From: Stramenopiles sp. TOSAG23-6
Lineage: Eukaryota > Sar
Direction: 5' to 3'
DNA length: 42,146 nucleotides
Assembly: GCA_900128565.1 (NCBI GenBank)
Contig: LT635935.1
Span: 1-42,146, forward strand
Numbering within the stretch: position 1 is the stretch's first letter; the number at the start of each line of letters is the position of its first letter. Positions 1 to 42,146 of the stretch are shown piece by piece. The notes beneath the pieces are model-generated. The model was given only the letters and a program-made list of their open reading frames with translations, did not search any database and was not told where the DNA came from. Both the position numbers and the translations under genes were made by a program.

Positions 1-55
1 AGGAGAAAAGAGAAATGTGACACTTTGGCTTGCAGGACCCGATGCACATAAAAAT
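1..55 (+). repeat. 55-bp terminal repeat, left end
   Basis: These 55 bases are identical to 38154-38208 on the same strand, and to 3939-3993 and 42092-42146 on the opposite strand. Identity stops exactly at base 55: the next bases are CGTAAATC here and GGAATATA in the gene. The internal copy belongs to the 3' part of the giant IQ/PDZ gene. A contig that starts with an exactly 55-bp sequence shared with an internal site is the signature of a 55-mer vertex in an assembly graph. Confidence 0.9.
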
Positions 56-364
56 CGTAAATCATCCGTGAGACAACAAGTTATGCTTCTTAGTAGCAAA
101 TACGAACAACTGAAAGAAAAATTGGCTGTTTCGGAAACTGCAAAAGCACTTGATGCACAAGAACAACGCCTTCGACATTATGAACAGAATCTATTTAAAC
201 TAAATGAATTCATTGAATCAAAAGGAAGAGAAACTGATTATGTACAAGTAAAAGATGAATGTAAACAGCAAATGGGGGAACTGAATGCCCTATTAGTAAG
301 TTTAGCATCAGAACTGAAACCAGTTCTCATATCTAATAATCAGGGTAATCTTAATGATTTTTGA
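2..364 (+). CDS. IFT74: IFT74-like intraflagellar transport protein, C-terminal fragment
   Basis: This open frame has no start in the window and ends at TGA 362-364. IFT74 is a coiled-coil subunit of the IFT-B complex that carries tubulin and other cargo along the flagellar axoneme. The match lies in the extreme C-terminus: from about base 80 the protein reads as coiled coil, followed by LRHYEQNLFKLNEFIESKG and a TDY motif. These resemble the LEQNNF..KEFIA.K..E.DY segment near the end of animal IFT74, which I recall from family knowledge. The first 55 bases are not IFT74 sequence; they are an exact copy of the giant scaffold gene, so the codons before base 56 should not be trusted. An AATAAA lies at 415-420, about 50 bases after the stop. 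The fusion stays in frame, but I infer a chimeric joint. Confidence 0.72.
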   Translation, partial: GEKRNVTLWLAGPDAHKNRKSSVRQQVMLLSSKYEQLKEKLAVSETAKALDAQEQRLRHYEQNLFKLNEFIESKGRETDYVQVKDECKQQMGELNALLVSLASELKPVLISNNQGNLNDF

Positions 365-414
365 AAGTTTGCTTTGTAGTTTATCTAACAACACATTTAT
401 TTGAATAGTGTATA

Positions 415-420
415 AATAAA
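415..420 (+). terminator. Candidate polyadenylation signal of the IFT74-like gene
   Basis: AATAAA lies 51 bases after the stop codon in an A/T-rich 3' region. Position and sequence fit a cleavage/polyadenylation signal, although this AT-rich DNA contains such hexamers by chance. Confidence 0.45.
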
Positions 421-508
421 AATATCAAATTTTTTTGAGAGCAAATTGTTAATTTAAATTGTTAAACAGATTAATTTTGGGCACTTTTTCAAATTTTTAC
501 TCCTACAA

Positions 509-526
509 ACCTAACCCTAACCCTAA
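509..526 (-). repeat. Interstitial telomere-like repeat (CCCTAA)n
   Basis: About three units of CCTAACCCTAACCCTAAT sit about 120 bp upstream of the membrane-repeat gene start. The G-rich strand points toward the left window end, opposite to the patches near the axis. The mirror copy is at 41621-41638. Confidence 0.8.
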
Positions 527-644
527 TTCGGAAAATTCTACAGAAAAAATGAAACGGAAACTGCGGAAACTGTAGTCATATCTTTCAGGTTGACCTGTCC
601 GTGGGTAGTGCCTATTATTACCTGCGTTACCTGCCACACCGTTT

Positions 645-3600
645 ATGATGGAAGGCATGCTCTTTTCAATGAAAGGAGTGCAAGATTTTGATTTGTCTGA
701 TGGTGACAGTGATGATTCATGGGAATGTGTGACTCGTGAAGCAACTATGTAAGTTTTTCTTCTAACTTTTTTTTTTTCAACAACAAAACTTCCAATCACA
801 ACAGAAACTTGTCCACTTTCATCTTCAAATAACATTTCTTGCTTTTCTTTCAAATTGTAAAACTAACTCTTGATTGACATCTGATTGCTTTACAAATACA
901 GTATACCCGATCAACATGGAGAATCTTTAGGGAATATGGATCCTTTGGAAATCTCTGAAGACTCTTCTATTGAGTTTTTTTGTATCTCCGATGTGTCTAG
1001 CGAGATATCTAGCGATGATAGTTCTACTGAAATAAGCGATGATAGTTCTACTGAAATAAGGAGTGATTTCTCTGAATGCAGCTTTTACGATGGTATTAGC
1101 AATTCTCTAAAACCACTTGATATTTTCTCGTACTTGTTGAATGAAAATAACAAATCCCAAAGAGTACGAAAAAATGTTTTCCGTGAAGACATGGATGAAG
1201 CGGAAAAAAAACTGGACGCTACCAAAAAACTTGGAAGGAAGCTGAATCGTAAAAGCAAACGTAAGGTGAAAAGAAGTATCATTGATGGTGATACTACAGG
1301 TGCTGATGCAGATATTGACACTCATGTGGATACGGATACAGCTGAAGAATTTGAAAAATATTTTGTTTTTGAGAAAAAGCATGAAGACATTATCACTCAT
1401 CGTCTATCAAGACCAAGCGAATATGATCATCAACTACTTCGATGTATGCTGCAACTGATTATCGTCACAATTTATGCCACAAACATTTTTTTGGTGTTTT
1501 CAGTCGTATTTTACTTAATTGTTCCATATGATCCAACATTTTCGTCCACTGATATAATGCTACCTTTTGGTGACCCTACTACGCAAGAGACACTTCTTGA
1601 AACGATTTCGAAAGAGGTAGATTACAGTCGTGATACTTGTGCTGCTATCGATCTCTACCCGACTACTCCAACTATAGGACAAAAGATCACCAATTTACAA
1701 AGATCACATCTCATGAACATGTCTTACTTGTTGCCACATCGGGTTAAATCGGGTTTCAATATTATTCGAACGAAGAAAATTCCAAAGCTACAAAATTCAT
1801 CTCTCACTAAATCGAGGGAAAATCTCTCGACAATTCCAAACGTTGATTTTTTGATTCGATCCAGACATATTGAAAACATACAATTGTATTCGAAAAAACA
1901 TAATGCTCGAAATAATACATTTTTGTTGAACTTTCTTGCAAATCAAGAATATGGTTCGAATGTGCGTCTCAGTTTGTACGATAAACAAGTATGGATTCCT
2001 ACCTCAAATCTCGCTTCAAAAACTTTACCTTCAGTCAAAACGTCAAGTGTATTGCCTAATTACAAAAATGTTTTAACGACAACGCCATTTATTTTGTCCT
2101 CGGCAAGTTCAAAATTTGCATCTGTCAATGAAAAAGTTTCTTCTGGGGTCATATCTTTCATAAAGCCTAATCTGTATCATACTACAGCTACACAAAAAGC
2201 AATACGAATTTCAGAAAAGAAGAAAATATCTTCAACTTTTAACAGATTGGGGGAAGGAAAACAAGGTGATTCTTGGAAATCTTTGATTCAACCAACACCA
2301 CCGGTTACAAAATCCTTGAAAGGTAAAAACACTTTGCGCGTTCGTCCTTGGTGGGATGTAGTGTCTGCTGTTGTTAGAGTTCTTCGACCTGCGTCGGCTC
2401 GAAAAAATAAGCTAAATTGGTCTCCAATGGAAGGATTTAAAAGCAAGGGTATTTGTCGTGTATCAAAGACGTGTAAGCGTAGACACCGGAAAATGCGCCA
2501 ATGCGAAAGTTCAGCAGGTACCGCAATGCCAATTCTAGCTTGGCCTTCATCTGATGCTGAAACTAAACGAAGCGATGGTCCAGTCAGTAGTTTCTCAACA
2601 ACTTCTGGTGAAGAGCATGTATACGTTCGCAACACAGGAAAAAGTAATCGTCTCCGCCCTGTCGAATTTCATCAAATTGATCACGAAAAACAATCGGAGC
2701 ATGTGCGCCTTAACGCGGTAAAACCTGAATCAAATTCATGGTTGAAGAGCTGGTGGGGCAAAGGTGACTGGTGTGTACCTCCAGCAGAGCTAAAGGCTAA
2801 GTCTTGGTGGAAATCACCCTCATACTGCAATAATATAGATGCCTCACGATGTCCTGTTCGTAAATGGTATCAGCAGAATAGTTTGTGCCTTCAATCAGCT
2901 CAATGTCCTGTTCCTAAATGGTATCAGAAGAATGGTTTGTGTCTTCAACCAGCTCAGTGCCCTGTTCCTAAATGGTATCAAAAGAATGGTTTGTGCCTTC
3001 AATCAGCTCAATGTCCTGTTCCTAAATGGTATCAGAAGAATGGTTTGTGTCTTCAACCAGCTCAGTGCCCTGTTCCTAAATGGTATCAAAAGAATGGTTT
3101 GTGCCTTCAATCAGCTCAATGTCCTGTTCCTAAATGGTATCAGAAGAATGGTTTGTGTCTTCAACCAGCTCAGTGCCCTGTTCCTAAATGGTATCAAAAG
3201 AATGGTTTGTGCCTTCAATCAGCTCAATGTCCTGTTCCTAAATGGTATCAGAAGAATGGTTTGTGTCTTCAACCAGCTCAGTGCCCTGTTCCTAAATGGT
3301 ATCAAAAGAATGGTTTGTGCCTTCAATCAGCTCAATGTCCTGTTCCTAAATGGTATCAGAAGAATGGTTTGTGTCTTCAACCAGCTCAATGTCCTGTTCC
3401 TAAATGGTATCAGAAGAATGATATTTCTGTAGTGAAGTCAAAAGAGGAACAGGGCGAAGAAAAGCTGCGTAAAATTTGTTTCGGGAAAATATGTAGCGAG
3501 GAGGAATTATACTTAATCAAATTTGTTTTTGATGAACTAGATTTATACGATTTATATTCCAGTTTATCCCCAAGTCTTATGGAATTGTTTCCAAGTTTGT

Positions 3601-3692
3601 TTGACGACGAAGAATTCAACGAATTCTTTAGAGTAGAAAGTGTTGGAGAAACAATTGATGAAATTTTTGATGAAATGTTTGAAACTCATTGA
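645..3692 (+). CDS. Single-pass membrane protein with eleven 18-residue Cys/Trp repeats
   Basis: I do not recognise a family. I infer two exons: 645-748, a GTAAGT...ACAG intron at 749-901 with ACTAACT at 861-867 as a likely branch site, and 902-3692. Phases agree (two bases plus one) and give 964 residues. The first ATG (645) follows an in-frame TAG at 606. The N-terminus is acidic and Ser-rich. A Lys/Arg cluster lies near residues 143-160, and one hydrophobic segment near 217-242 should anchor it, with the N-terminus probably cytosolic. The next 400 residues are Ser/Thr/Lys-rich, then WW-containing segments. Residues about 685-874 are tandem copies of CPVPKWYQKNGLCLQ[S/P]AQ, with two Cys per unit. 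The tail is strongly acidic and aromatic. The repeats may be an extracellular adhesive or structural domain, but that is only inference. Confidence 0.75.
2850..3419 (+). repeat. 54-bp coding tandem repeat with 108-bp higher-order period
   Basis: Ten full 54-bp units start at 2850, with an eleventh partial unit at 3390-3419. The first unit is divergent (CPVRKWYQQNSLCLQ). The rest alternate strictly between two nucleotide versions, one with TGTCCT...CAGAAG...GTGTCTTCAACC and one with TGCCCT...CAAAAG...GTGCCTTCAATC, so the true period is 108 bp. Differences within each version are almost absent, which indicates recent homogenisation of the dimer. Confidence 0.95.
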
Positions 3693-3742
3693 TAAACTTG
3701 GTAGTCTGGAAGATTTGAAAAAATGTATAACTTTCGCTATCA

Positions 3743-3766
3743 AATAAAACATGGCATTTATTTATT
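3743..3766. terminator. Back-to-back polyadenylation signals of convergent genes
   Basis: The 78-bp gap between the membrane-repeat gene and the giant gene holds AATAAA at 3743-3748 for the plus-strand gene. On the minus strand, overlapping AATAAA hexamers lie between 3757 and 3766, only a few bases after the TAG stop of the giant gene. The two 3' UTRs must be very short or overlap antisense. Confidence 0.55.
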
Positions 3767-3770
3767 ATTA

Positions 3771-6700
3771 CTATGAAAAGGGGAGCAACTTTCCCTCAAA
3801 TGACATCATCGACTTATGCTTTCTATTTTCTATTTTGTATGTTTTTTTCAAATCTTGAATGTCTCTATTCTTTGGCTCTAGATATATTTCGAAATTAACT
3901 TGGCCAAAATTCTGAGCTGTAGTACTATTATATATTCCATTTTTATGTGCATCGGGTCCTGCAAGCCAAAGTGTCACATTTCTCTTTTCTCCTGACTTCA
4001 AGGGACCTGGAGAAGACATCATTCGATCACATGGTCGATATACAGCAAATCCAACAAGAGTGTGTGAAATTTCGGCAGACGATCCTCTATTTTTCACAGC
4101 AGATCCAATGCTACTGCCATCATCATCAGCATATATCTCTATCAAAATAGCTTCCTTTGAAAAGCGACCATTTCCACTCTTTGTATCTGTTGCAAGTTCA
4201 ACGTTACATATGCCAGAGGAATCTTTCCAACTGGGATATAACTTTCCCGTTCGATCATTTACAGTGCGTGGTCTTCGATTTGTGGTGTCTATATATTGAG
4301 TTGTATTAGAGTGCAAATTATAAGATGGCATTTGAGATTGTTTTAACTCATGAATTTCTTGTTCATTCACAGATTCTAAATCATCAAATGTAAACATATC
4401 TTTGATCCATGCTGAACCTGTCCTTTTGGAGTTGCGAACGGCGGTTGAAACCCTTGGTATACCCCGAATTTCTTCTACGCGTCTGCTTCGAAATATTTTG
4501 TTGGTTGAAAACACCATTGTCTTTATCTGGCCATTTCTCTCCTTTGATTTCAGTATTGTTTTCAGCTTAGAAAATGCCAGTTCAGTAACATTTTCACCAT
4601 CAATGCTCCGTACAAACATTCCAATATTCACACCTAATGAATACAGCAATGGGGTTCCTTCTAACGAAAAATGACTCACAAATGCACCGGTATCGTTTAA
4701 ACCTGGATGAAAAGAATTGCGCCAATTACGAATAAGACCAGGAATCTTAAGTTCGATTGTCTTGTCACCCGATTTCCACTGATGTTTCATCTGGAAACGA
4801 ACTCGAGCACCGCGAAAGTATCGTTGAATTCTCTCGACAGCAGTTACTTGTATGATTTGAGAGATGTTTATTACATCACGCAAAGCTGCATTTGCTGCGG
4901 ATTTCGCTTGCATTGATGCTTGCTGTGCAACATGTCTTTGAAACTGTAATTTTGTTGAATTAATGCGAGACACAAGCAATTTAAAAACTTCTTCTGAACG
5001 AACCATATATTCGTGGATGAATGTTGCTGCTTCGTATGCCGCTTGAGCTGCGCGGGATATGCTTATCTTTCGATTAAACTGTTGAGAACATAAGATCTTC
5101 CGATACATACATTGTAGTCTAGTTACCGCAAGACATTTGCGGCGATAACGAAAATAGTGTTGAAGTTTAGATGCTGCCTTAGTTTGCTTGACTAAAAGTT
5201 TCATCGCGGCAAAATTCTTCCTTGCAAGTACTACGCGAAATAGGCACTGAATTTTGGTCGCCGCCCGGAATTTTCTTCTACCTTGAATACCACCTAGACC
5301 CTTCTTCATCATCGTACTGGAATAAGAATCTTCTGTGTTATCTTCATGATATATTTTATCACCCCCGCCTTTAAGCCGATTAACAAGATTCATTTGTGAA
5401 AAATCTTGTATTTCTGTTGATTCTGACGAGTTTGAATGTCTATCGATACTGTTGTTAATCTTCACCAATGATGCTTTTAATTTTGTTCTCAATATTTTTT
5501 CAAATATTAATGTCTTGGGAGCTTGGGCAGATTTCTTAAGTATGGACATCGCCATCTTTTTAGATAAAGAACTGACATCAGTATCACCCACAAATACTAA
5601 ACGCATACCTTGTACAATTCCTCCTTTAGACAGAGGGCTTCCTCCATGTATATCAGGTCGAAATGATTTTACGAATATGCCTTGTAGTGTTTGATGTCCT
5701 CCAAACTGGGCATATAAAGGGCCTGGGGGTACATCAATACTGATTGTGTGTTTTGAAGACACAACATCTTCCTTTGTTTCGAGTTTCTTCTTCAACCCTT
5801 CTATAACAACAGTTTTGACATTTTGCTCTTTATTTCCTTGGAACCCTCGAACCTCATCTGCGCTTTTGATTATGTCGTGTTCTACACAAACGTTTTGCTT
5901 ATTACCCCTCTCAAAATTTTCCACTTCAAGAAAATCATCGTCTGATTTAGATTCAAATTCTTTCATTTCTTCATCATTTGCTTTCTTATTCCAATGCTCC
6001 ATCATTGCGCGAGCTTCACTCACCTCACGTTCATCTTTCTGTACTTGACCACGTAAACGTTTGACATCTACCTTCACAAGGTTCAAATTCCTCTCCATAT
6101 TTATTTCAGTTGCCGATGGTGAGTAACTTCTGGTATTTTTCGTGCGACGACTGCGAAATATATTTTGTATTCTAATTGCTGCTCTTGTCTGGTTAGATTG
6201 CATCGCCTCAAGTGATATCATCAACATTTGCTTATTTGTCGCACGCGAAAAAACAAGGACCTTTGACTCTGAAGCAAGTGTTTTCAGCAACTTTAACCCC
6301 TCATTAAAGTCGATATCTTTTGTATTTACATCATTGATTTTCTTAAGGATCATCCCAGGTCGAATTTTGGGGTGAAGTTCAACGACTCCAGGATTTCCAT
6401 CGCTTAGTGGTGAAAGGAAACGGGAAATAAAAAGTGAACAATTATTTGCACCCGGGCATAAACCCATTCCTAAAGGGCCTCCTGGAACACGAATTGTCAC
6501 ATCATCTTTTATCTTTTTTCTTTTCTGTTTAACCTCTAACTTAATCGGTTGGGGTGAAATAGAAATCGAATTGATTTCATTAATGTTTGCTTCACTGAGG
6601 CTTGATGGTTTGTTTTTTACTTCGGTCTTTTGAAAGCGTGATTGTTGGTGTTCGTTGTGTGTCTTTTTCTCTACATTTTCGAGTTTCACTATTGTAGATT

Positions 6701-9700
6701 TATTACCCCTTACTGTTTTCTCTGGTATCTCAGAGGTTTTGGGCATTAAAGATATTTTCGATGGTATATTTTCAACTTGAGGTTTTTGTTTTGATACGAT
6801 GTCACTGTTTTGCTTTTGCTTCTTGGGAAGAGCTAGTGGTTTAACGTTTCCTTTTTTTTTCTTCCTTGGACTTATTGAAGATTGTTTTCGTTTATCATTT
6901 TTGATACCCCTTTTTGCTTGTGTAGTATGTTTAACTTTACCTTTTTCCAAAATATTTTTTTTACTTTTCGAGGGATAAGATTTTATCAAATTTTTAGGTG
7001 ATTCCTTTTTAATATTGTTGCTTGCGATGCGTTTTGATCGGAGCATGTCTTGATCAACCCGGGGTACTCTTTCTTCTGTATGGCTCTCCAATTTTGACCG
7101 TGTAATTATTCGTTTCTGGGTTTCGTTTTTTACACATTTGTTCTTTTTAAGCTTTTGTAAATGTATCTTTTTTGAAAGTCGCTGAATCATCACCGCAGCG
7201 GAATTTTCTATATCATTGAAATTGTGTTTTACTGATATATTTAAGAGTGAAATGATATTTGATGGAGGGTGTGTTGAAAATGTTACAACGCAATCAGAAG
7301 TGAATAGTTTCTTCAATAAAGATTTTGCTTCTTCGAAACGAAGAGAGCCAATTAAAGGCTTGTCATCAATTTTTGTCACTATCATACCAATATGAACCCC
7401 TGCTTCTTCGAGTATACCAATGTCACCATCATCACCTGTTTCAAATGAAGAAACTCGAAGTCCGAATTTGCCGAAGTATGGCTGAAAGGAAACCCTTAGT
7501 GAAGAGTCTGATTTTACATGTACATTTTTCACAATGAGCTCGGGTAAATTGACTGGGTCAATTGGATGTAAGACCCCGGTGATGTCGCGGTGCCACTTCA
7601 TGAAAACACCTCCGCCTTGACCAGCATTCAAACAATATCTTTTACTACCACGAGAACTTCTATGTGCCACAGAAAGTTTGGCTTCACCAATGACAGAAGA
7701 TACTTTGTTGTTTGGCGATTGCATACATAAACGTACTGTTACTTCAGGATCTATGTATCCTTGAAGATTCAGTTTATGATATTCTTCCCACCTTATCCAA
7801 TTTGAAAGTTTTCTCAGTTTTGTTTTGCAGCTTCTATGCAACAGTCCCTTGGATCGACCCTGATTTAATTTTTGCTTAACCTCCCAAGACCGCCCTCGTT
7901 CACCAGTTAAAGCACACAGGGAGAATCTATTTCTCGAATCATTCTGTATTTCATTGCAAAATTTTACGCCAACTGCGCCCGATAGAGATAAATGTAACAC
8001 ATTCTCGAGATATTTTGGATCTGTACCTTTACATTTGCTGTGTTTCTGTGTCAAAAATAATCTTTGAATTACTCTTGCAGAATTCTCATGAGTTTTGTTG
8101 AAGAAATATATTGGTCGTTCAAAATTATTTAAAGAGAATGTTACAAGATGGTACAAATTATTTGGAACAATATCATTTTGCAAAGAACTCCAATGTTCAT
8201 CTCTCAGCTTTCCCTCAAAAGGTTTTCCGTTTATTCGTACTAATTGCATCCCTCGACACATTCCTGCAATTTCACAAATCCCCGGTTTCCCATTTACGCC
8301 TCTAAATTGTGCTATCCTATTATCTTCTGCGCCTAATCGGATACCCATACTTTCAACTGACTTGACAGACACGGCTATTTGCGATTTTGCAAACGAACGA
8401 AAATCTAATGATGTTGATATATATTGACGCATGTTAAATTCTCCGCTATTATTGTAAAAAGGGGCCCCGACACCGTAACTCCACAAAAGCTCGACGCTAC
8501 CGGATAGTGATTTAAGTAAACATTGTTCTCTAGAATCTAGTTCATTTGGAATATCGCTGAATGCTTCGGCTAAAACATAATCAGATGTTTCTTTGGTATT
8601 ATTTGCGCCATTGTTAGATTGTATTATTCGAACACTGAGCTCGGGCATATCTATAGAACCAATGCAAAAAGCAGAAGTGTAATTGTATGCAAGTGTTTCC
8701 TTGCTTTTGCGAAATGGTGTTTGACATACGCATTCCAACACACAATCACCAGTGTTTTTTACTTTATTTTCCCAGCGTAATCCTTTTTCGCCAACACATA
8801 AAGCTATCCTTGTGTATTTTCCTAAAGTGCAAAAATCATTTGCAGCAGGTAAACCAAAGCACCCGATTACGTTTATATTTAATATGTCCCCATGTTTGGT
8901 ACCCACGGACATATATTTTTCATCTTTTATTTTGCTTTCGACATCAACTAACTTGCGCAATTTCCATTCTCGAATATATTTTTGAATTCTCATCACCGCG
9001 CGTTGTTTGATATTTCTTGACATTGCATTTATCGTGGCTATTTTTAAGGCTTTTTCTGAAGGACGAGAACTCCATACCATGTGTTTTTTTGTATTTGTTT
9101 TTGATTTTAACAATACCAATATATCAGTCGCATACATTGTTGCAACATTTGCATTATCATCTAGTTTTGAGAGATACATTCCAAGTTTGATATTACTTCT
9201 TTCTAATTGCCCGTGCTTGCCACGAGCATCCAAAAAAAATGAAGCAACGCGTAAACCAATTCCACCTGGTCCGGGCAGAAACTTCGCACTCATCGAACCA
9301 GGATTAACTTCAATTGTAATATCTTTGAGCTTCGGAAATTTATACAGTTTCTCTCCAGATAGTTGTACGGACATTGCCCGTTGCCACTGTAATAACATTG
9401 ACCCTCCAGAAAAGTTTTTGGAATTTATAGGCGCTTTGAATGTATAACGTTGAATACCATTCGATGTCCGGGAGCTAGGTATTATCACAGAGCACTCGCC
9501 AAGTAGAATATCTTGCTCATCTATTACACGTTCCATAAGTCTTATGGTAATTTCTGGAGATTTAATTCCTGTTAATGTAATCATTTTATGTTCATTCCAA
9601 ACTGCAAACTTCCCTCTCTCAATTACAGATTTTGTAGTAATATATCTTGAAGAAAGCTTTTTATCACTAGTATTGGGAATACAGTCTAGCTTTGATTGCC

Positions 9701-24237: not shown

Positions 24238-26166
24238 ATGGGTGCCTCTGCGTCCTTTCTCAGTACGTCAGAACGGACAGTAGCGTCTCGTTTAAGTGAA
24301 GATGTTATAGAAACAATGCCTCCAAAAACAAAGCGTGAACTCGAAAATTATCGAAAGATCTATCTGAACGCGTACACAGAGAATGGAGGTAAAGCTGCTG
24401 AAGATAACATAGAATCTGTATTTGCAGTACCAATTACGGACCCTTCGCGTGTAGCAGCATATAAAACTCTTTGCACAGCATACAATATGAATCAAAGGGA
24501 GAAACAAATAGAAGAAGTTGAAGTGGTGCTTAAAGCACTTGAAAGTGCAATTGACGCCACAGTTTTTGTTGGTCAACGTTGGCCCTTTATAATAGATGGT
24601 ACAGGACAAGTAGCTACGTTCTTTCGATATCAAGGAGGCTGTCTACTTGATTCAACTAACCCTCGTGATATGGAACCAGAGAATCTTCGAAAGGCTCTTG
24701 TAGCCTGTTTGCGTTATGGTAAAACTCTCTGTATAAACTTTGGCACTGTCAAGCGGCTGGAACTCTCACAGTTTTTCTCCCAAGGATTTTTTCCATCTGC
24801 AATTTTTGATAGAGAAATACTATACAGGGATGAAGTTATACAGTCCCTTTTACGACCTGATTCTGGTGATCCTACATTTGAAAAATTCGTACCACAAAAT
24901 GATTTTAAGTTTGTTTGCCTTTGTTCTGCTGAAGAAGCACCAAAGAGAACAGCAGCTCGTATGGCTATAATAAGGGTTAGAAATGATGTTCCTCGAAGGC
25001 GAGGCCGAGAGTCTGAGGCAGCTCGAAGTGAATTAGCTGGTGCATTTGGTTTAAAAGAAATGAAACGCAATTCAAAGGAGCTTGTGGATGCTGCTTTTAA
25101 TGGCGATCTTGCCGAAGTGCAAAATTTTGTAGCTAAGGGGTATCACATAGATTCAGAAAACAAACTAGGTCATACTGCCATCAGTGAAGCATCCTGTGCT
25201 GGTAAGATAGATATTGTTGAATGGCTGATTGAACAAGGAGCAAACACAAATACATTTTGTAAAAAACAGAATCGAACACCTCTATTTCGTGCGGCATTTC
25301 ATGGTCATTCTGATATTTGTGAATTGTTATTATGCTCTGGAGCTGATCCCGATTTAAAAACGAATGGAACAGTACCCGAAAAGCCCCAAGATATTGCAAA
25401 GACAAAAGAACTTCAAAGCAAATTATCAGCTTGGGATCGAAAGGTTACCATTGAGTTGAGGCGTCAACGAGAGTCTGAAATTCAGCGTAAATTAGAAGAG
25501 AGAATTAAAGATAAACATAAACTAAATGCCATAGCACGAAATAAAATTCAGCAAGAGCTCGTTGAGCTTGCAGAAATAGGTGATGTACTTAAAGTGACGG
25601 AATATCTAGAAAACCTAGCAACTGAAGCTGAAGAAAATAATGAGAGAGTACCTATGGGATCCGCAATGGCTCGTGATTATAGAGGAAATACATTATTAAG
25701 TATTGCATCGCAGCATGGTAGAATTGAACTTGTCAAAAAATTTGTAACTCACTGGAAAACAGAATTAAAAGAATCGGACTCATTTTTTGACATTGATGAA
25801 AATGAAATGAAGAGAAGGGTGTGGAGAGTTGATGTAAATTCAAGAGACACAAAGGGTTGGTCACCAATAATGATTGCAGCATTTCATTCAAAGAAAAAAA
25901 TTGTTGAACTTTTGCTTGATCATGGCGGCAATCCTAAATTAAGAAATTCATATGGAAAAAATACATTTGAGGTAACAAAAAGTGAAGAAATAAAACAAAT
26001 CTTGCGTACATGGGGCGAAAAAAACGGTTGGACAGATTTGAATACTATTGATAAAGAACAACTTGAATCCGACATAAGTAAGAAAGCAAAAGAAATAATG
26101 AATCCAAAAAAGAAGAAGAAAAGAGGTAAAGGGCGATTGAAGAAGAAAAGCTCAAAGTTGAGGTGA
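24238..26166 (+). CDS. Ankyrin-repeat IQANK1-like protein, mirror copy
   Basis: This is the mirror of 15981-17909 on the forward strand. ATG 24238 lies in TTCTAAAATGGGT, and the second residue Gly needed for myristoylation supports this start over Met-27. The stop is TGA 26164-26166. The gene reads in the same direction as the downstream giant gene, with 228 bp between them. Confidence 0.8.
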   Translation: MGASASFLSTSERTVASRLSEDVIETMPPKTKRELENYRKIYLNAYTENGGKAAEDNIESVFAVPITDPSRVAAYKTLCTAYNMNQREKQIEEVEVVLKALESAIDATVFVGQRWPFIIDGTGQVATFFRYQGGCLLDSTNPRDMEPENLRKALVACLRYGKTLCINFGTVKRLELSQFFSQGFFPSAIFDREILYRDEVIQSLLRPDSGDPTFEKFVPQNDFKFVCLCSAEEAPKRTAARMAIIRVRNDVPRRRGRESEAARSELAGAFGLKEMKRNSKELVDAAFNGDLAEVQNFVAKGYHIDSENKLGHTAISEASCAGKIDIVEWLIEQGANTNTFCKKQNRTPLFRAAFHGHSDICELLLCSGADPDLKTNGTVPEKPQDIAKTKELQSKLSAWDRKVTIELRRQRESEIQRKLEERIKDKHKLNAIARNKIQQELVELAEIGDVLKVTEYLENLATEAEENNERVPMGSAMARDYRGNTLLSIASQHGRIELVKKFVTHWKTELKESDSFFDIDENEMKRRVWRVDVNSRDTKGWSPIMIAAFHSKKKIVELLLDHGGNPKLRNSYGKNTFEVTKSEEIKQILRTWGEKNGWTDLNTIDKEQLESDISKKAKEIMNPKKKKKRGKGRLKKKSSKLR

Positions 26167-35300: not shown

Positions 35301-38300
35301 CGTTAAACCACTAGCTCTTCCCAAGAAGCAAAAGCAAAACAGTGACATCGTATCAAAACAAAAACCTCAAGTTGAAAATATACCATCGAAAATATCTTTA
35401 ATGCCCAAAACCTCTGAGATACCAGAGAAAACAGTAAGGGGTAATAAATCTACAATAGTGAAACTCGAAAATGTAGAGAAAAAGACACACAACGAACACC
35501 AACAATCACGCTTTCAAAAGACCGAAGTAAAAAACAAACCATCAAGCCTCAGTGAAGCAAACATTAATGAAATCAATTCGATTTCTATTTCACCCCAACC
35601 GATTAAGTTAGAGGTTAAACAGAAAAGAAAAAAGATAAAAGATGATGTGACAATTCGTGTTCCAGGAGGCCCTTTAGGAATGGGTTTATGCCCGGGTGCA
35701 AATAATTGTTCACTTTTTATTTCCCGTTTCCTTTCACCACTAAGCGATGGAAATCCTGGAGTCGTTGAACTTCACCCCAAAATTCGACCTGGGATGATCC
35801 TTAAGAAAATCAATGATGTAAATACAAAAGATATCGACTTTAATGAGGGGTTAAAGTTGCTGAAAACACTTGCTTCAGAGTCAAAGGTCCTTGTTTTTTC
35901 GCGTGCGACAAATAAGCAAATGTTGATGATATCACTTGAGGCGATGCAATCTAACCAGACAAGAGCAGCAATTAGAATACAAAATATATTTCGCAGTCGT
36001 CGCACGAAAAATACCAGAAGTTACTCACCATCGGCAACTGAAATAAATATGGAGAGGAATTTGAACCTTGTGAAGGTAGATGTCAAACGTTTACGTGGTC
36101 AAGTACAGAAAGATGAACGTGAGGTGAGTGAAGCTCGCGCAATGATGGAGCATTGGAATAAGAAAGCAAATGATGAAGAAATGAAAGAATTTGAATCTAA
36201 ATCAGACGATGATTTTCTTGAAGTGGAAAATTTTGAGAGGGGTAATAAGCAAAACGTTTGTGTAGAACACGACATAATCAAAAGCGCAGATGAGGTTCGA
36301 GGGTTCCAAGGAAATAAAGAGCAAAATGTCAAAACTGTTGTTATAGAAGGGTTGAAGAAGAAACTCGAAACAAAGGAAGATGTTGTGTCTTCAAAACACA
36401 CAATCAGTATTGATGTACCCCCAGGCCCTTTATATGCCCAGTTTGGAGGACATCAAACACTACAAGGCATATTCGTAAAATCATTTCGACCTGATATACA
36501 TGGAGGAAGCCCTCTGTCTAAAGGAGGAATTGTACAAGGTATGCGTTTAGTATTTGTGGGTGATACTGATGTCAGTTCTTTATCTAAAAAGATGGCGATG
36601 TCCATACTTAAGAAATCTGCCCAAGCTCCCAAGACATTAATATTTGAAAAAATATTGAGAACAAAATTAAAAGCATCATTGGTGAAGATTAACAACAGTA
36701 TCGATAGACATTCAAACTCGTCAGAATCAACAGAAATACAAGATTTTTCACAAATGAATCTTGTTAATCGGCTTAAAGGCGGGGGTGATAAAATATATCA
36801 TGAAGATAACACAGAAGATTCTTATTCCAGTACGATGATGAAGAAGGGTCTAGGTGGTATTCAAGGTAGAAGAAAATTCCGGGCGGCGACCAAAATTCAG
36901 TGCCTATTTCGCGTAGTACTTGCAAGGAAGAATTTTGCCGCGATGAAACTTTTAGTCAAGCAAACTAAGGCAGCATCTAAACTTCAACACTATTTTCGTT
37001 ATCGCCGCAAATGTCTTGCGGTAACTAGACTACAATGTATGTATCGGAAGATCTTATGTTCTCAACAGTTTAATCGAAAGATAAGCATATCCCGCGCAGC
37101 TCAAGCGGCATACGAAGCAGCAACATTCATCCACGAATATATGGTTCGTTCAGAAGAAGTTTTTAAATTGCTTGTGTCTCGCATTAATTCAACAAAATTA
37201 CAGTTTCAAAGACATGTTGCACAGCAAGCATCAATGCAAGCGAAATCCGCAGCAAATGCAGCTTTGCGTGATGTAATAAACATCTCTCAAATCATACAAG
37301 TAACTGCTGTCGAGAGAATTCAACGATACTTTCGCGGTGCTCGAGTTCGTTTCCAGATGAAACATCAGTGGAAATCGGGTGACAAGACAATCGAACTTAA
37401 GATTCCTGGTCTTATTCGTAATTGGCGCAATTCTTTTCATCCAGGTTTAAACGATACCGGTGCATTTGTGAGTCATTTTTCGTTAGAAGGAACCCCATTG
37501 CTGTATTCATTAGGTGTGAATATTGGAATGTTTGTACGGAGCATTGATGGTGAAAATGTTACTGAACTGGCATTTTCTAAGCTGAAAACAATACTGAAAT
37601 CAAAGGAGAGAAATGGCCAGATAAAGACAATGGTGTTTTCAACCAACAAAATATTTCGAAGCAGACGCGTAGAAGAAATTCGGGGTATACCAAGGGTTTC
37701 AACCGCCGTTCGCAACTCCAAAAGGACAGGTTCAGCATGGATCAAAGATATGTTTACATTTGATGATTTAGAATCTGTGAATGAACAAGAAATTCATGAG
37801 TTAAAACAATCTCAAATGCCATCTTATAATTTGCACTCTAATACAACTCAATATATAGACACCACAAATCGAAGACCACGCACTGTAAATGATCGAACGG
37901 GAAAGTTATATCCCAGTTGGAAAGATTCCTCTGGCATATGTAACGTTGAACTTGCAACAGATACAAAGAGTGGAAATGGTCGCTTTTCAAAGGAAGCTAT
38001 TTTGATAGAGATATATGCTGATGATGATGGCAGTAGCATTGGATCTGCTGTGAAAAATAGAGGATCGTCTGCCGAAATTTCACACACTCTTGTTGGATTT
38101 GCTGTATATCGACCATGTGATCGAATGATGTCTTCTCCAGGTCCCTTGAAGTCAGGAGAAAAGAGAAATGTGACACTTTGGCTTGCAGGACCCGATGCAC
38201 ATAAAAATGGAATATATAATAGTACTACAGCTCAGAATTTTGGCCAAGTTAATTTCGAAATATATCTAGAGCCAAAGAATAGAGACATTCAAGATTTGAA

Positions 38301-38376
38301 AAAAACATACAAAATAGAAAATAGAAAGCATAAGTCGATGATGTCATTTGAGGGAAAGTTGCTCCCCTTTTCATAG
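26395..38376 (+). CDS. Giant IQ/PDZ/C2-like scaffold protein, mirror copy
   Basis: This is the forward-strand copy of the gene at 3771-15752 and the easier one to read: ATG at 26395, stop TAG at 38374-38376. The start is the first ATG after A/T-rich flank (TTGAAATATGGAG). Twelve kilobases without an intron is unusual beside neighbours that do carry introns. The module order in the middle is IQ, then C2-like, then PDZ-like, repeated four times, which suggests internal duplication of a unit of about 450 residues. Confidence 0.85.
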   Translation: MEFTLLDADIRDPSLQYTNSYPPFIHASLSRNAINAWKKWCKQDELPADIPHVPANDITIQEAAADAMLQHGSRPFSRLVSANSMLNPNQPQSRLFGASSLRRTPVSRINTSSRRGLRLSRPVTRAHSSLSRPPTHQQLVSPISQRGTLLTPGGGISRDYAQSRSLSGLSMRREDTYSFQLRQIKSDMNKQEKRGQLEGCLDCLEKELVLKRDRFGLHSDEATNVIRHAGALCNRLGKNKLEQGNLDDADIFLMKAEILNKNFALQLLITLNLVAAVSRNRYVQTADETELQNALVCLKKSLGVADNIVQKKQITNFVSAKKNSNVSKIEKATASTHLQLCFVFALLREHTLAAAHGQQAIRLLEVGIRKALQRNQSRRSSRKNSRRKFFAPDKIELNVEEQCKELGGAYLALARQHISLKLPGAAVSCLEKGISTLETIGGKHSIIRSLKIQRVKIKLQERHKSDNVEMRKRTHIQQQQLHNIQRYEKLMSAIDDKKDLYIELQPKKTKIDRKIIRHKNDKKGIKRLSVKDINRKAKLKQSIAYGNFIRNQRNKLERRRTNKHRQQNNVFDIVSDGESNDTSNSISNSLTNEGTGYRRITRADMLRAKTGYTVHSINQNDDNTIGTTDVSFDQDVSFDPEEFFIDIEDPPKLHLTQDIGRFEVNKQYNKNVNVQQRKIERRNAQLSKPSFQQGLRSVHNIQRYRKGNTRVGVKMPQWLSKRPAIENDNIDHFEQKSSNIKRSKAAWEIAEELSRSEPLPLFLSKSRLSHQNTSHNIDVLDQKEMNLLNSDQRSKKLKSRFAKRLATNQHNTDDKKGNIIAQKRQRKKKQHSAEVDANRIMLLQHYREMLRLGVPRRAVERDMRSRNISIDMLDTDPTLIFRKAKHLKTHDVREQLHKKRKVVADTRLKVMRRGQLDIGQEHSRKQDINHAAVTIQASVRGWTGRRQKYTGKKKKIQNDAALRIQANVRGWSSRAHTRRKTNARGWTGRRRHEMIARRGISSRDMGMLGARLALHAGDTGRSLSRWTRGRKTDEMLLNFTEEELREIDSAIAIQTIHRGRLGRIKAHKKYVIKNTTPSQIDGLRCVQRAYRNYIARRKARNIDFRLNCTSEMRYAAIEIQKHVRVYAAQKKARKMRIEKGQNKKWEDKYSSLNLEKRNRYRKDKILELNPPFPNQVGHDIVNLENGAKEINGDIEVMDIVKNEMSESSTRKISELQQQSINAAFRHKMNINMSLIRALGLRMPNVKENNEVRGVYAVVKVIPVYLQHNSHVLEVDRAKLVHRTETRFWKPGVLEEKMAIIIQAYYRSFRIRFALRKPKEPIDKAKFATNIQAVWRGRCTRNIENLGIRGINIYCGSGAIGAIIRPGTFLFKEDRGAMLLGFYRSKSGNILPIEADGRIRKGMYLVSINGKSTVEKTFNHISKMIRVAEVKQENIFTFQIVPREIYDARVLKLMTSAKKKIQRWSRTMLSDMRIRVVQEMSALSIQRSFKSMCNKRKIKANAEQKRLEHSSAKSIQNGFRQMCIRKEAKRVFEMFRLTIVSVTELPLRRHNVDKRQISVAAALGEHGQSFALKKRLSNTRRIAESKESFKGSFETIGVQKAASVYWCATCELVKENVKVPEISLQIIETSPNGIRRPIGECALRLLKEHSGGTETYAVCRHGTKEVVKGRITVSWQRFTMTKKTLSVINTTRFFTAVVPGGRLGCNFQSSLGGIGVAVKALALVDGTPGPLASVGVKVGMHLIDMKHPNYKSDNEKTLGNMNFLDAIEILRLHTLEKKELIFSNNASTAALEWSSRQAFLSSIDPKGYAIFKIQRCARVFLAKLREQDTLLIPQPNIASIYAHINILKNRMKQNEANLSNSEKYLRGSGGEARILERAHRVLRKWQLLLRLLVKEEDSFGDKTKLITIRRRIYNLKHTTAIDSAWTCRQLQIKKYMKKYEKSRISLLQVKAQIDSAIERETPEILKKHLGEDLRISISRIEGINDFRQRCQNSGRKVPQNLEIPSLYLQLLVGEQGYRWQSKLDCIPNTSDKKLSSRYITTKSVIERGKFAVWNEHKMITLTGIKSPEITIRLMERVIDEQDILLGECSVIIPSSRTSNGIQRYTFKAPINSKNFSGGSMLLQWQRAMSVQLSGEKLYKFPKLKDITIEVNPGSMSAKFLPGPGGIGLRVASFFLDARGKHGQLERSNIKLGMYLSKLDDNANVATMYATDILVLLKSKTNTKKHMVWSSRPSEKALKIATINAMSRNIKQRAVMRIQKYIREWKLRKLVDVESKIKDEKYMSVGTKHGDILNINVIGCFGLPAANDFCTLGKYTRIALCVGEKGLRWENKVKNTGDCVLECVCQTPFRKSKETLAYNYTSAFCIGSIDMPELSVRIIQSNNGANNTKETSDYVLAEAFSDIPNELDSREQCLLKSLSGSVELLWSYGVGAPFYNNSGEFNMRQYISTSLDFRSFAKSQIAVSVKSVESMGIRLGAEDNRIAQFRGVNGKPGICEIAGMCRGMQLVRINGKPFEGKLRDEHWSSLQNDIVPNNLYHLVTFSLNNFERPIYFFNKTHENSARVIQRLFLTQKHSKCKGTDPKYLENVLHLSLSGAVGVKFCNEIQNDSRNRFSLCALTGERGRSWEVKQKLNQGRSKGLLHRSCKTKLRKLSNWIRWEEYHKLNLQGYIDPEVTVRLCMQSPNNKVSSVIGEAKLSVAHRSSRGSKRYCLNAGQGGGVFMKWHRDITGVLHPIDPVNLPELIVKNVHVKSDSSLRVSFQPYFGKFGLRVSSFETGDDGDIGILEEAGVHIGMIVTKIDDKPLIGSLRFEEAKSLLKKLFTSDCVVTFSTHPPSNIISLLNISVKHNFNDIENSAAVMIQRLSKKIHLQKLKKNKCVKNETQKRIITRSKLESHTEERVPRVDQDMLRSKRIASNNIKKESPKNLIKSYPSKSKKNILEKGKVKHTTQAKRGIKNDKRKQSSISPRKKKKGNVKPLALPKKQKQNSDIVSKQKPQVENIPSKISLMPKTSEIPEKTVRGNKSTIVKLENVEKKTHNEHQQSRFQKTEVKNKPSSLSEANINEINSISISPQPIKLEVKQKRKKIKDDVTIRVPGGPLGMGLCPGANNCSLFISRFLSPLSDGNPGVVELHPKIRPGMILKKINDVNTKDIDFNEGLKLLKTLASESKVLVFSRATNKQMLMISLEAMQSNQTRAAIRIQNIFRSRRTKNTRSYSPSATEINMERNLNLVKVDVKRLRGQVQKDEREVSEARAMMEHWNKKANDEEMKEFESKSDDDFLEVENFERGNKQNVCVEHDIIKSADEVRGFQGNKEQNVKTVVIEGLKKKLETKEDVVSSKHTISIDVPPGPLYAQFGGHQTLQGIFVKSFRPDIHGGSPLSKGGIVQGMRLVFVGDTDVSSLSKKMAMSILKKSAQAPKTLIFEKILRTKLKASLVKINNSIDRHSNSSESTEIQDFSQMNLVNRLKGGGDKIYHEDNTEDSYSSTMMKKGLGGIQGRRKFRAATKIQCLFRVVLARKNFAAMKLLVKQTKAASKLQHYFRYRRKCLAVTRLQCMYRKILCSQQFNRKISISRAAQAAYEAATFIHEYMVRSEEVFKLLVSRINSTKLQFQRHVAQQASMQAKSAANAALRDVINISQIIQVTAVERIQRYFRGARVRFQMKHQWKSGDKTIELKIPGLIRNWRNSFHPGLNDTGAFVSHFSLEGTPLLYSLGVNIGMFVRSIDGENVTELAFSKLKTILKSKERNGQIKTMVFSTNKIFRSRRVEEIRGIPRVSTAVRNSKRTGSAWIKDMFTFDDLESVNEQEIHELKQSQMPSYNLHSNTTQYIDTTNRRPRTVNDRTGKLYPSWKDSSGICNVELATDTKSGNGRFSKEAILIEIYADDDGSSIGSAVKNRGSSAEISHTLVGFAVYRPCDRMMSSPGPLKSGEKRNVTLWLAGPDAHKNGIYNSTTAQNFGQVNFEIYLEPKNRDIQDLKKTYKIENRKHKSMMSFEGKLLPFS
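38154..38208 (+). repeat. Internal copy of the 55-bp end repeat (right arm)
   Basis: This is a direct-orientation copy of window bases 1-55, within the giant gene on the right arm. Reading out of this copy into position 56 would join the giant gene in frame to the IFT74-like tail. Confidence 0.9.
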
Positions 38377-38380
38377 TAAT

Positions 38381-38404
38381 AATAAATAAATGCCATGTTT
38401 TATT
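38381..38404. terminator. Back-to-back polyadenylation signals, mirror copy
   Basis: This mirrors 3743-3766. AATAAATAAA at 38381-38390 directly follows the giant gene stop (TAG 38374-38376). The signal of the convergent membrane-repeat gene is on the other strand at 38399-38404. Confidence 0.55.
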
Positions 38405-38454
38405 TGATAGCGAAAGTTATACATTTTTTCAAATCTTCCAGACTACCAAGTTTA

Positions 38455-41400
38455 TCAATGAGTTTCAAACATTTCATCAAAAATTTCATCAATTGTTTCT
38501 CCAACACTTTCTACTCTAAAGAATTCGTTGAATTCTTCGTCGTCAAACAAACTTGGAAACAATTCCATAAGACTTGGGGATAAACTGGAATATAAATCGT
38601 ATAAATCTAGTTCATCAAAAACAAATTTGATTAAGTATAATTCCTCCTCGCTACATATTTTCCCGAAACAAATTTTACGCAGCTTTTCTTCGCCCTGTTC
38701 CTCTTTTGACTTCACTACAGAAATATCATTCTTCTGATACCATTTAGGAACAGGACATTGAGCTGGTTGAAGACACAAACCATTCTTCTGATACCATTTA
38801 GGAACAGGACATTGAGCTGATTGAAGGCACAAACCATTCTTTTGATACCATTTAGGAACAGGGCACTGAGCTGGTTGAAGACACAAACCATTCTTCTGAT
38901 ACCATTTAGGAACAGGACATTGAGCTGATTGAAGGCACAAACCATTCTTTTGATACCATTTAGGAACAGGGCACTGAGCTGGTTGAAGACACAAACCATT
39001 CTTCTGATACCATTTAGGAACAGGACATTGAGCTGATTGAAGGCACAAACCATTCTTTTGATACCATTTAGGAACAGGGCACTGAGCTGGTTGAAGACAC
39101 AAACCATTCTTCTGATACCATTTAGGAACAGGACATTGAGCTGATTGAAGGCACAAACCATTCTTTTGATACCATTTAGGAACAGGGCACTGAGCTGGTT
39201 GAAGACACAAACCATTCTTCTGATACCATTTAGGAACAGGACATTGAGCTGATTGAAGGCACAAACTATTCTGCTGATACCATTTACGAACAGGACATCG
39301 TGAGGCATCTATATTATTGCAGTATGAGGGTGATTTCCACCAAGACTTAGCCTTTAGCTCTGCTGGAGGTACACACCAGTCACCTTTGCCCCACCAGCTC
39401 TTCAACCATGAATTTGATTCAGGTTTTACCGCGTTAAGGCGCACATGCTCCGATTGTTTTTCGTGATCAATTTGATGAAATTCGACAGGGCGGAGACGAT
39501 TACTTTTTCCTGTGTTGCGAACGTATACATGCTCTTCACCAGAAGTTGTTGAGAAACTACTGACTGGACCATCGCTTCGTTTAGTTTCAGCATCAGATGA
39601 AGGCCAAGCTAGAATTGGCATTGCGGTACCTGCTGAACTTTCGCATTGGCGCATTTTCCGGTGTCTACGCTTACACGTCTTTGATACACGACAAATACCC
39701 TTGCTTTTAAATCCTTCCATTGGAGACCAATTTAGCTTATTTTTTCGAGCCGACGCAGGTCGAAGAACTCTAACAACAGCAGACACTACATCCCACCAAG
39801 GACGAACGCGCAAAGTGTTTTTACCTTTCAAGGATTTTGTAACCGGTGGTGTTGGTTGAATCAAAGATTTCCAAGAATCACCTTGTTTTCCTTCCCCCAA
39901 TCTGTTAAAAGTTGAAGATATTTTCTTCTTTTCTGAAATTCGTATTGCTTTTTGTGTAGCTGTAGTATGATACAGATTAGGCTTTATGAAAGATATGACC
40001 CCAGAAGAAACTTTTTCATTGACAGATGCAAATTTTGAACTTGCCGAGGACAAAATAAATGGCGTTGTCGTTAAAACATTTTTGTAATTAGGCAATACAC
40101 TTGACGTTTTGACTGAAGGTAAAGTTTTTGAAGCGAGATTTGAGGTAGGAATCCATACTTGTTTATCGTACAAACTGAGACGCACATTCGAACCATATTC
40201 TTGATTTGCAAGAAAGTTCAACAAAAATGTATTATTTCGAGCATTATGTTTTTTCGAATACAATTGTATGTTTTCAATATGTCTGGATCGAATCAAAAAA
40301 TCAACGTTTGGAATTGTCGAGAGATTTTCCCTCGATTTAGTGAGAGATGAATTTTGTAGCTTTGGAATTTTCTTCGTTCGAATAATATTGAAACCCGATT
40401 TAACCCGATGTGGCAACAAGTAAGACATGTTCATGAGATGTGATCTTTGTAAATTGGTGATCTTTTGTCCTATAGTTGGAGTAGTCGGGTAGAGATCGAT
40501 AGCAGCACAAGTATCACGACTGTAATCTACCTCTTTCGAAATCGTTTCAAGAAGTGTCTCTTGCGTAGTAGGGTCACCAAAAGGTAGCATTATATCAGTG
40601 GACGAAAATGTTGGATCATATGGAACAATTAAGTAAAATACGACTGAAAACACCAAAAAAATGTTTGTGGCATAAATTGTGACGATAATCAGTTGCAGCA
40701 TACATCGAAGTAGTTGATGATCATATTCGCTTGGTCTTGATAGACGATGAGTGATAATGTCTTCATGCTTTTTCTCAAAAACAAAATATTTTTCAAATTC
40801 TTCAGCTGTATCCGTATCCACATGAGTGTCAATATCTGCATCAGCACCTGTAGTATCACCATCAATGATACTTCTTTTCACCTTACGTTTGCTTTTACGA
40901 TTCAGCTTCCTTCCAAGTTTTTTGGTAGCGTCCAGTTTTTTTTCCGCTTCATCCATGTCTTCACGGAAAACATTTTTTCGTACTCTTTGGGATTTGTTAT
41001 TTTCATTCAACAAGTACGAGAAAATATCAAGTGGTTTTAGAGAATTGCTAATACCATCGTAAAAGCTGCATTCAGAGAAATCACTCCTTATTTCAGTAGA
41101 ACTATCATCGCTTATTTCAGTAGAACTATCATCGCTAGATATCTCGCTAGACACATCGGAGATACAAAAAAACTCAATAGAAGAGTCTTCAGAGATTTCC
41201 AAAGGATCCATATTCCCTAAAGATTCTCCATGTTGATCGGGTATACTGTATTTGTAAAGCAATCAGATGTCAATCAAGAGTTAGTTTTACAATTTGAAAG
41301 AAAAGCAAGAAATGTTATTTGAAGATGAAAGTGGACAAGTTTCTGTTGTGATTGGAAGTTTTGTTGTTGAAAAAAAAAAAGTTAGAAGAAAAACTTACAT

Positions 41401-41502
41401 AGTTGCTTCACGAGTCACACATTCCCATGAATCATCACTGTCACCATCAGACAAATCAAAATCTTGCACTCCTTTCATTGAAAAGAGCATGCCTTCCATC
41501 AT
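38455..41502 (-). CDS. Membrane protein with 18-residue Cys/Trp repeats, mirror copy
   Basis: This is the mirror of the gene at 645-3692. Exon 1 is 41399-41502, the intron 41246-41398 and exon 2 38455-41245. Without the intron, the long exon has only an internal ATG at 41209-41211, and the spliced model adds 52 residues ahead of that. Removing the intron gives a continuous frame on this arm too, as expected from identity. Confidence 0.74.
38728..39297 (-). repeat. 54-bp coding tandem repeat, mirror copy
   Basis: This mirrors the array at 2850-3419, with the same unit number and the same alternation. A repeat array this close to perfect on both arms argues that the arms are the same molecule sequenced once, because independently evolving copies would be expected to differ in unit number. 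Confidence 0.93.
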
Positions 41503-41782
41503 AAACGGTGTGGCAGGTAACGCAGGTAATAATAGGCACTACCCACGGACAGGTCAACCTGAAAGATATGACTACAGTTTCCGCAGTTTCCGTTTCATTT
41601 TTTCTGTAGAATTTTCCGAATTAGGGTTAGGGTTAGGTTTGTAGGAGTAAAAATTTGAAAAAGTGCCCAAAATTAATCTGTTTAACAATTTAAATTAACA
41701 ATTTGCTCTCAAAAAAATTTGATATTTTTATTTATACACTATTCAAATAAATGTGTTGTTAGATAAACTACAAAGCAAACTT
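41503..41782. other. Intergenic region, mirror of 365-644
   Basis: This holds the telomere-like patch at 41621-41638 (G-rich strand on plus) and the flanks of the membrane-repeat and IFT74-like genes. I see nothing else in it. Confidence 0.6.
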
Positions 41783-42145
41783 TCAAAAATCATTAAGATT
41801 ACCCTGATTATTAGATATGAGAACTGGTTTCAGTTCTGATGCTAAACTTACTAATAGGGCATTCAGTTCCCCCATTTGCTGTTTACATTCATCTTTTACT
41901 TGTACATAATCAGTTTCTCTTCCTTTTGATTCAATGAATTCATTTAGTTTAAATAGATTCTGTTCATAATGTCGAAGGCGTTGTTCTTGTGCATCAAGTG
42001 CTTTTGCAGTTTCCGAAACAGCCAATTTTTCTTTCAGTTGTTCGTATTTGCTACTAAGAAGCATAACTTGTTGTCTCACGGATGATTTACGATTTTTATG
42101 TGCATCGGGTCCTGCAAGCCAAAGTGTCACATTTCTCTTTTCTCC
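41783..42145 (-). CDS. IFT74: IFT74-like C-terminal fragment, mirror copy
   Basis: This is the reverse-complement copy of the fragment at 2-364, cut off by the right edge of the window. Its stop is at 41783-41785. The bases upstream of 42092 on this strand are the 55-bp repeat shared with the giant gene, not IFT74. The AATAAA counterpart is at 41727-41732. Confidence 0.7.
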   Translation of the reverse strand, partial: GEKRNVTLWLAGPDAHKNRKSSVRQQVMLLSSKYEQLKEKLAVSETAKALDAQEQRLRHYEQNLFKLNEFIESKGRETDYVQVKDECKQQMGELNALLVSLASELKPVLISNNQGNLNDF

Positions 42146-42146
42146 T
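42092..42146 (-). repeat. 55-bp terminal repeat, right end
   Basis: This is the mirror of bases 1-55, closing the window at its right end exactly as the left end opens it. Confidence 0.9.

Follow-up and report, generated by a model that had tools for sequence, protein, structure and literature searches.

A perfect 42-kb palindromic contig in the assembly of Stramenopiles sp. TOSAG23-6 is very probably an artefact with one arm written twice

The window analysed here, 42,146 b long, is one complete contig, C393 (LT635935.1), of the 408-contig, 8,027,113-b assembly G000. We conclude with high confidence that it represents about 21 kb of eukaryotic nuclear genome written twice, an artefact from assembler fold-back or an amplification chimera, and that its palindrome is very probably not biology. 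Comparing the contig with its reverse complement gave 0 mismatches in all 42,146 b; the symmetry centre lies between 21073 and 21074, and A and T number 13,305 each, G and C 7,768 each. This bears out the initial annotation, which had described a perfect 2 x 21,073-bp palindrome, symmetric to the end bases, with the same genes, 54-bp array length and homopolymers in both arms; the identity of ORFs, array and homopolymers follows from the self-complementarity of the window. The features of the contig are listed below.

1-42146: whole contig, exact self-reverse-complement; on the best reading, edges A (1-3993), B (3939-38208) and A' (38154-42146)
1-55 (+): terminal 55-mer, present in reverse complement at 3939-3993; junction J1 between 55 and 56
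59-364 (+): putative C-terminal piece of an IFT74-like gene, apparently cut at J1 (weak PDB match); mirror 41783-42088 (-)
885-3692 (+): 935-codon ORF with the 54-bp tandem array (10.6 copies, 2849-3420; mirror 38727-39298); mirror 38455-41262 (-)
3771-15752 (-): 3993-codon ORF; mirror 26395-38376 (+)
3939-3993 (-): terminal 55-mer repeated internally, within the 3993-codon ORF
15981-17909 (-): ankyrin-repeat protein, 642 aa; mirror 24238-26166 (+)
18359-18703 (-): RBX1-type RING-H2 protein; mirror 23444-23788 (+)
19061-19882 (+): NIPSNAP protein; mirror 22265-23086 (-)
19883-20998 (+): stretch from the last gene to the core; one 133-codon ORF, no recognised gene
20999-21148: A/T-only core, with the fold junction J0 between 21073 and 21074
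38154-38208 (+): mirror of the internal 55-mer
42092-42146 (-): mirror of the terminal 55-mer; mirror of J1 between 42091 and 42092

The first 55 b of the contig recur in reverse complement at 3939-3993, with 100% identity that extends over exactly 55 b, and therefore mark a second inverted junction, J1. This junction is inverted, spans 3.88 kb and lacks the native flank to the left of position 56. A repeat search had returned the region as a 62-b, 95% inverted repeat (1-62 and 3932-3993), and a paralogous exon at the contig end was considered; this candidate was dropped, as perfect identity over exactly 55 b is a k-mer overlap. The terminal 55-mer occurs at 1, 3939, 38154 and 42092 and is the sole 55-mer outside the array with a multiplicity of 4, and a search with the first 300 b located it on no other contig of G000. 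C393 thus appears to end on a branching k-mer which recurs inside it, as is characteristic of a de Bruijn artefact. Comparison of 164 contig ends of 60-300 b gave a longest exact end-to-end overlap of 55 b, at four joints; 17 further overlaps of 31-53 b, none of 55 b, are put down to a dispersed repeat, one copy of which lies at 19886-19972 between the NIPSNAP gene and the core. Together, the terminal 55-mer and the 55-b maximum of the overlaps point to a k=55 de Bruijn graph.

We simulated a 55-mer graph from one arm supplemented with 120 b over the core and 115 b over J1. This yielded the unitig 3939-38208, which is self-complementary and 34,270 b long; simulation with one arm alone gave no self-complementary unitig, whereas one arm together with the 120 b over the core did give one. 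The two inverted junctions are all the information needed beyond one arm, the tandem array apart. Since both arms are the same nodes of a k-mer graph, zero differences and mirrored ends are forced by a single palindromic junction. The initial annotation had taken these two properties as evidence of an artefact, but they do not discriminate. Its preference for assembler fold-back or an amplification chimera is nevertheless upheld by evidence that does, namely the terminal 55-mer, the sister palindromes with unrelated folds, and the genes cut at folds, to which the IFT74-like gene contributes weakly.

J1 appears to cut this IFT74-like gene. With its first codons removed, the ORF at 59-364 had a sole PDB match at E≤10, to IFT74 (8bd7_G, residues 573-633 of 641) at a weak E of 0.44; with the first codons included, a phmmer search of the PDB gave no match at E≤0.1. 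The same ORF matched Pfam HBM (E 0.0011, 18.9 bits, below the cut-off of 29.8), which we take for a coiled-coil match, and had no match in NCBIfam. The 935-codon ORF had no family match in Pfam or NCBIfam. In the 3993-codon ORF there is a PDZ match under the Pfam cut-off, as well as IQ-like motifs read by eye, and a PDB search returned no match. The 642-aa ankyrin protein gave only sub-cut-off ankyrin-type matches in NCBIfam. The best match of the RBX1-type protein outside the window's own cluster was a EukProt protein at 87%, and a 99% identical NIPSNAP is encoded on a contig in Logan whose length is at most 10,537 b; the RBX1 cluster reports this length, too, for its longest contig. Neither the NIPSNAP nor the ankyrin protein had a relative among the viral contigs searched.

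Other contigs of G000 are also palindromic, at sites unrelated to that of C393. These contigs, the recurrence of the terminal 55-mer and J1 had all escaped the initial annotation. We tested 82 contigs for end symmetry, and 9 of the 79 with two readable ends were symmetric (in the remaining 3 one end was all N). Mirrored markers suggest three more palindromic contigs, with several mirrored pairs each in C27 and C58 and one in C147. In C372, C381 and C406 the symmetry is perfect over the 800 b to the left and to the right of the centre and over 300 b compared in mid-arm, and these three fold in sequence of ordinary complexity; the centres of C391, C369 and C396 are unshared, and C391 folds in poly-T/poly-A. 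No motif was common to the fold points of the sister contigs examined. Two sister palindromes fold inside coding frames. The fold of C381 cuts the only UTP14 found, whose alignment starts at most 5 b from it and enters the 731-position profile at position 104.

The core of C393 consists of A and T only, reading T38 A8 T5 A3 T21 up to the centre and A21 T3 A5 T8 A38 beyond it. Within the artefact reading, such a core could have allowed k-mers that were erroneous or of low complexity to connect the arm with its reverse complement in the graph, with no chimeric molecule involved. This has some plausibility, although we regard it as the less likely route. The poly-T/poly-A fold of C391 is consistent with it, as are the whole-contig palindromes in SPAdes assemblies described for Mycobacterium bovis (PMC9455707). 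In G000, 13 contigs have T tracts of at least 38 b, and in 5 of these contigs a tract lies at most 60 b from a contig end (tracts lie near or at an end in C47, C94, C96, C290 and C360); none in the assembly is as long as 55 b. However, C372, C381 and C406 fold at ordinary complexity, where noise is unlikely to build a 56-b palindrome, and J1 is a second inverted junction that lies in coding sequence.

The number of symmetric contigs would also fit real segmental palindromes across the genome, either young or homogenised by gene conversion, and C396 could be read in the same way, since its 16-kb arms surround a 6.8-kb spacer and are not quite identical, with a 35-b indel and one or more base differences between them. 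These differences are unlike a pure graph reflection, but allelic bubbles could explain them. With real segmental palindromes, UTP14 would be found only as two copies that both lack the start of the profile, and contigs of the same appearance are already known as artefacts (PMC9455707, PMC12755884); we consider this explanation very improbable. An open frame runs across J1 and across both inner junctions of C396, which counts against an artefact; by a rough estimate, an open frame crosses a chimeric join by chance about one time in six. It is similarly doubtful in the extreme that this organism contains many real near-perfect inverted dimers, that is, palindromic or dumbbell minichromosomes, with C393 as a 21-kb unit closed at J0 and J1.

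As the alternative, the initial annotation had offered a genuine inverted-dimer or hairpin chromosome end; on this reading, two 21-kb arms are present in the cell and joined at the core. Its main support is a set of five TTAGGG dimers (TTAGGGTTAGGG) within 19883-20998, all in one orientation and facing the core, and the confinement of the terminal 55-mer to C393 in the first-300-b search is compatible with it. However, TTAGGGTTAGGG has 531 matches in the assembly, on both strands, and also clusters inside C50 (among the matches listed, C1-C65). Four-unit TTAGGG arrays gave 5 matches, of which three are separated from the nearer contig end by more than 5 kb and two lie at most 1.4 kb from an end. 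The core itself has no telomere array, and the fold points of the sister contigs share no motif; an A/T core is absent where sister palindromes fold, two of these folds lie in coding frames, and J1 appears to cut a conserved gene (IFT74-like, by a weak match). As the dimers are dispersed over the assembly despite the five facing the core, we rejected a hairpin or telomere as the main explanation and judge it very improbable.

Artefacts of this kind have been described. In SPAdes assemblies of M. bovis, 81 whole-contig palindromes were considered a likely assembly error and inflate gene counts (PMC9455707). As in C393, the palindrome takes up the whole contig and the genes of one half recur in the other in reverse complement; M. 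bovis is bacterial, whereas C393 belongs to a eukaryotic assembly in which some sister contigs fold with spacers. Single-amplified genomes of hot-spring cyanobacteria also yielded palindromic contigs, which were judged very likely to be assembly artefacts (PMC12755884); these are single-cell data, but bacterial and with a small number of such contigs. In the Picozoa paper SPAdes was run in its single-cell mode at k values as high as 99, and we therefore claim no link between it and the G000 assembly. Palindromic reads have been reported from DNA that underwent whole-genome amplification (PMC6218980, PMC13265396). Most MDA chimeras are inverted; the segments joined mostly lie less than 10 kb apart, and the join often falls on a short stretch of complementarity (Lasken and Stockwell 2007, PMC1855051). 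Joins of this type would explain J1, with its 3.88-kb span, and spacers such as that of C396; the chimeras are described at the level of reads, and the contig-wide perfection of C393 would be added by the graph.

We therefore favour an artefact in which the junction reads most likely came from MDA chimeras, the amplification itself being what we infer. Fold-back chimeric molecules, most likely from MDA of one or few cells, would have supplied the junction k-mers at J0 in the A/T core and at J1, which joins 3939 read leftward to 56 read rightward; for J0, homopolymer noise is a possible alternative source. To such an assembler a k-mer and its reverse complement are a single object, so that any path crossing a fold has to run back along its own arm without changing a base and has to end at the mirror of the branch from which it started.

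C393 matters as quality control rather than as a real feature. Palindromic contigs double gene counts and can mimic inverted duplications or chromosome ends; the doubling pointed out by the initial annotation holds for C393, in which each gene of the arm is written twice. Perfect symmetry is uninformative on whether a second arm exists; testing the terminal k-mer and simulating from one arm show this cheaply and need no reads. At least nine contigs of G000 merit the same k-mer and one-arm check.

The window makes up the whole of C393, one of the 408 contigs (8.03 Mb) of assembly G000. C393 and its reverse complement match over all 42,146 positions, with the centre at 21073/21074, which bears out the perfect whole-window palindrome described in the initial annotation. 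A chance origin of this symmetry is out of the question. The same genes and the same 54-bp array had been noted in both arms, and these ORFs and the array are indeed common to both because the window is self-complementary. The gene content is eukaryotic, with ankyrin, RBX1-type RING-H2, NIPSNAP and an ORF of 3993 codons.

Features of the window
885-3692: 935-codon ORF containing a tandem repeat of 18 residues, CPVPKWYQKNGLCLQSAQ type (array at 2849-3420)
3771-15752: 3993-codon ORF, very long, with a PDZ match under the Pfam cut-off
19886-19972: single copy of a GTTAGGTACAAAATTTCG-type short dispersed repeat
20999-21148: A/T-only core

The CPVPKWYQKNGLCLQSAQ-type repeat alternates within a 108-bp higher-order unit, and the 935-codon ORF had no family matches in Pfam or NCBIfam. 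Searching PDB with the 3993-codon ORF returned nothing at E<=0.01. The NIPSNAP of the window is 99% identical to a Logan protein (P0121; contig up to 10,537 b), so another public run may contain this species or one closely related to it, unless the protein comes from the same run.

When the first 300 b of the window were searched against G000, four places matched, namely both ends of C393 and two internal copies with 100% identity across exactly 55 b. The window contains 20,699 distinct canonical 55-mers, of which 20,590 are present twice, 108 come from the tandem array, and a single one is present four times (positions 1, 3939, 38154 and 42092). With longer words (k = 77, 99 and 127), additional repeats were confined to the tandem array (2881-3388 in the left arm). 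Among 164 contig ends of G000, compared over 60-300 b, the longest exact end-to-end overlap was 55 b, found at four joints (C3-C369, C373-C374, C380-C392 and C398-C42), the first being visible at either end of C369, which is symmetric. Another 17 overlaps of 31-53 b probably stem from the dispersed repeat present at many contig ends. This GTTAGGTACAAAATTTCG-type repeat has at least 54 further matches in G000 (83-97% identity), and related copies at many contig ends probably break assembly. The four-fold terminal 55-mer and the 55-b overlap ceiling therefore suggest that G000 was produced by a de Bruijn assembler run at k = 55, presumably of the SPAdes type.

We constructed a 55-mer graph whose input was one arm (56-21073) together with two short junction pieces, 120 b spanning the core and 115 b spanning 55/56. 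The graph yielded a 34,270-b self-complementary unitig (3939-38208), and the tandem array and the four-fold 55-mer broke up the rest. The arm and core piece only gave a self-complementary unitig of 35,480 b, and the arm without junction pieces gave no self-complementary unitigs in the 55-mer graph. Arm identity and mirrored ends are therefore forced by the graph, and are no evidence that two arms had been seen. Since array copy number is not set by 55-mers, the equal array lengths must be a product of the assembler's resolution.

C393 can then be read as edge A (1-3993), self-complementary edge B (3939-38208) and edge A' (38154-42146). This path contains two inverted junctions, J0 in the core and J1, where 3939 leftward is joined to 56 rightward over a span of 3.88 kb. 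J1 connects the 3993-codon ORF with the C-terminal end of a candidate IFT74 gene. In PDB, the only match of the ORF at J1 at E<=10 was to IFT74 residues 573-633 of 641, and was weak (E 0.44). The junction reads would have come from MDA chimeras, the source we prefer, or from k-mer noise in the A/T core.

Both ends, 60-300 b each, were checked for symmetry in 82 of the 408 contigs (C1-C24, C368-C408 and 17 others, chosen partly because earlier searches had returned them). The first end was wholly N in three (C7, C16 and C378). Nine of the remaining 79 showed exact end symmetry (C2, C4, C369, C372, C381, C391, C393, C396 and C406), with a single N within each symmetric end of C391. All nine belong to C1-C24 or C368-C408, a group of 65 contigs to which the longest ones belong; none of the 17 others is symmetric. 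Mirrored opposite-strand markers imply three further symmetric contigs: C27 and C58, with four and two mirrored pairs of TTAGGG dimers among the matches listed, and C147, with one mirrored T-tract pair. Symmetry was perfect in C372, C381 and C406 over 800 b each side of the centre and in a 300-b mid-arm check. The mid-arm check was also symmetric in C391, where the poly-T/poly-A centre is asymmetric, and in C369, where the centre is unshared. C396 has a 6.8-kb unshared spacer between 16.1-kb arms, which are distinguished by a 35-b indel and by one or more single bases. The four perfect fold points have nothing in common except self-complementarity.

Perfect fold points
C372: GGTA/TACC
C381: TTGT/ACAA
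C406: TCAA/TTGA
Window: TTTT/AAAA

The C381 fold falls within UTP14, for which the two C381 arms are the only matches in G000; the alignment begins no more than 5 b from the fold, at profile position 104 of 731. The C406 fold lies within an open frame that extends for 266 codons or more and carries ankyrin-like repeats (judged by eye), and the C372 fold is without a long open frame. As the shortest G000 contig met is 10,020 b, short continuations at folds are invisible in this assembly.

Some observations speak against the artefact reading. An open frame continues across J1 and both inner junctions of C396, and the C396 arms are imperfectly alike. Five TTAGGG dimers within 0.76 kb are oriented toward the core of the window, as expected of a chromosome end. 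However, such dimers occur genome-wide, with similar clusters in C50. The dimer TTAGGGTTAGGG, found in the window at 20116-20867 and 515, has 531 matches in G000, scattered over both strands (265 and 266) and far exceeding the reversed control pattern (0 and 2). Taken jointly, the readings as a real palindrome are improbable.

There are published precedents for an artefact. Palindromic whole contigs, 81 in number, in M. bovis SPAdes assemblies were deemed likely assembly errors inflating gene counts (PMC9455707), and single-cell cyanobacterial assemblies contained contigs whose second half was the exact mirror of the first (PMC12755884). MDA of one E. coli cell yielded 475 chimeras, of which 406 were inverted; 337 of the inverted ones joined sequences <10 kb apart (PMC1855051). 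Palindromic reads made up 45.8% of an amplified A. thaliana set vs 0.5% of the non-amplified control (PMC6218980), and about one third of tardigrade mitochondrial reads after MDA (PMC13265396). The four-fold terminal 55-mer, the one-arm simulation and the sister palindromes with unrelated folds favour the assembler fold-back or amplification chimera originally considered most likely, and the C393 palindrome is very probably an artefact of this known kind.

Two other pairs of contigs in G000 share sequence. C69 and C388 are identical over their first 18,451 b and then diverge next to a repeat that contains single Ns. The pair C386 and C387 have their first and last 300 b in common and differ in length by 9 b. 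Each pair probably represents alternative paths of one locus, and the redundancy of G000 would therefore extend beyond palindromes.
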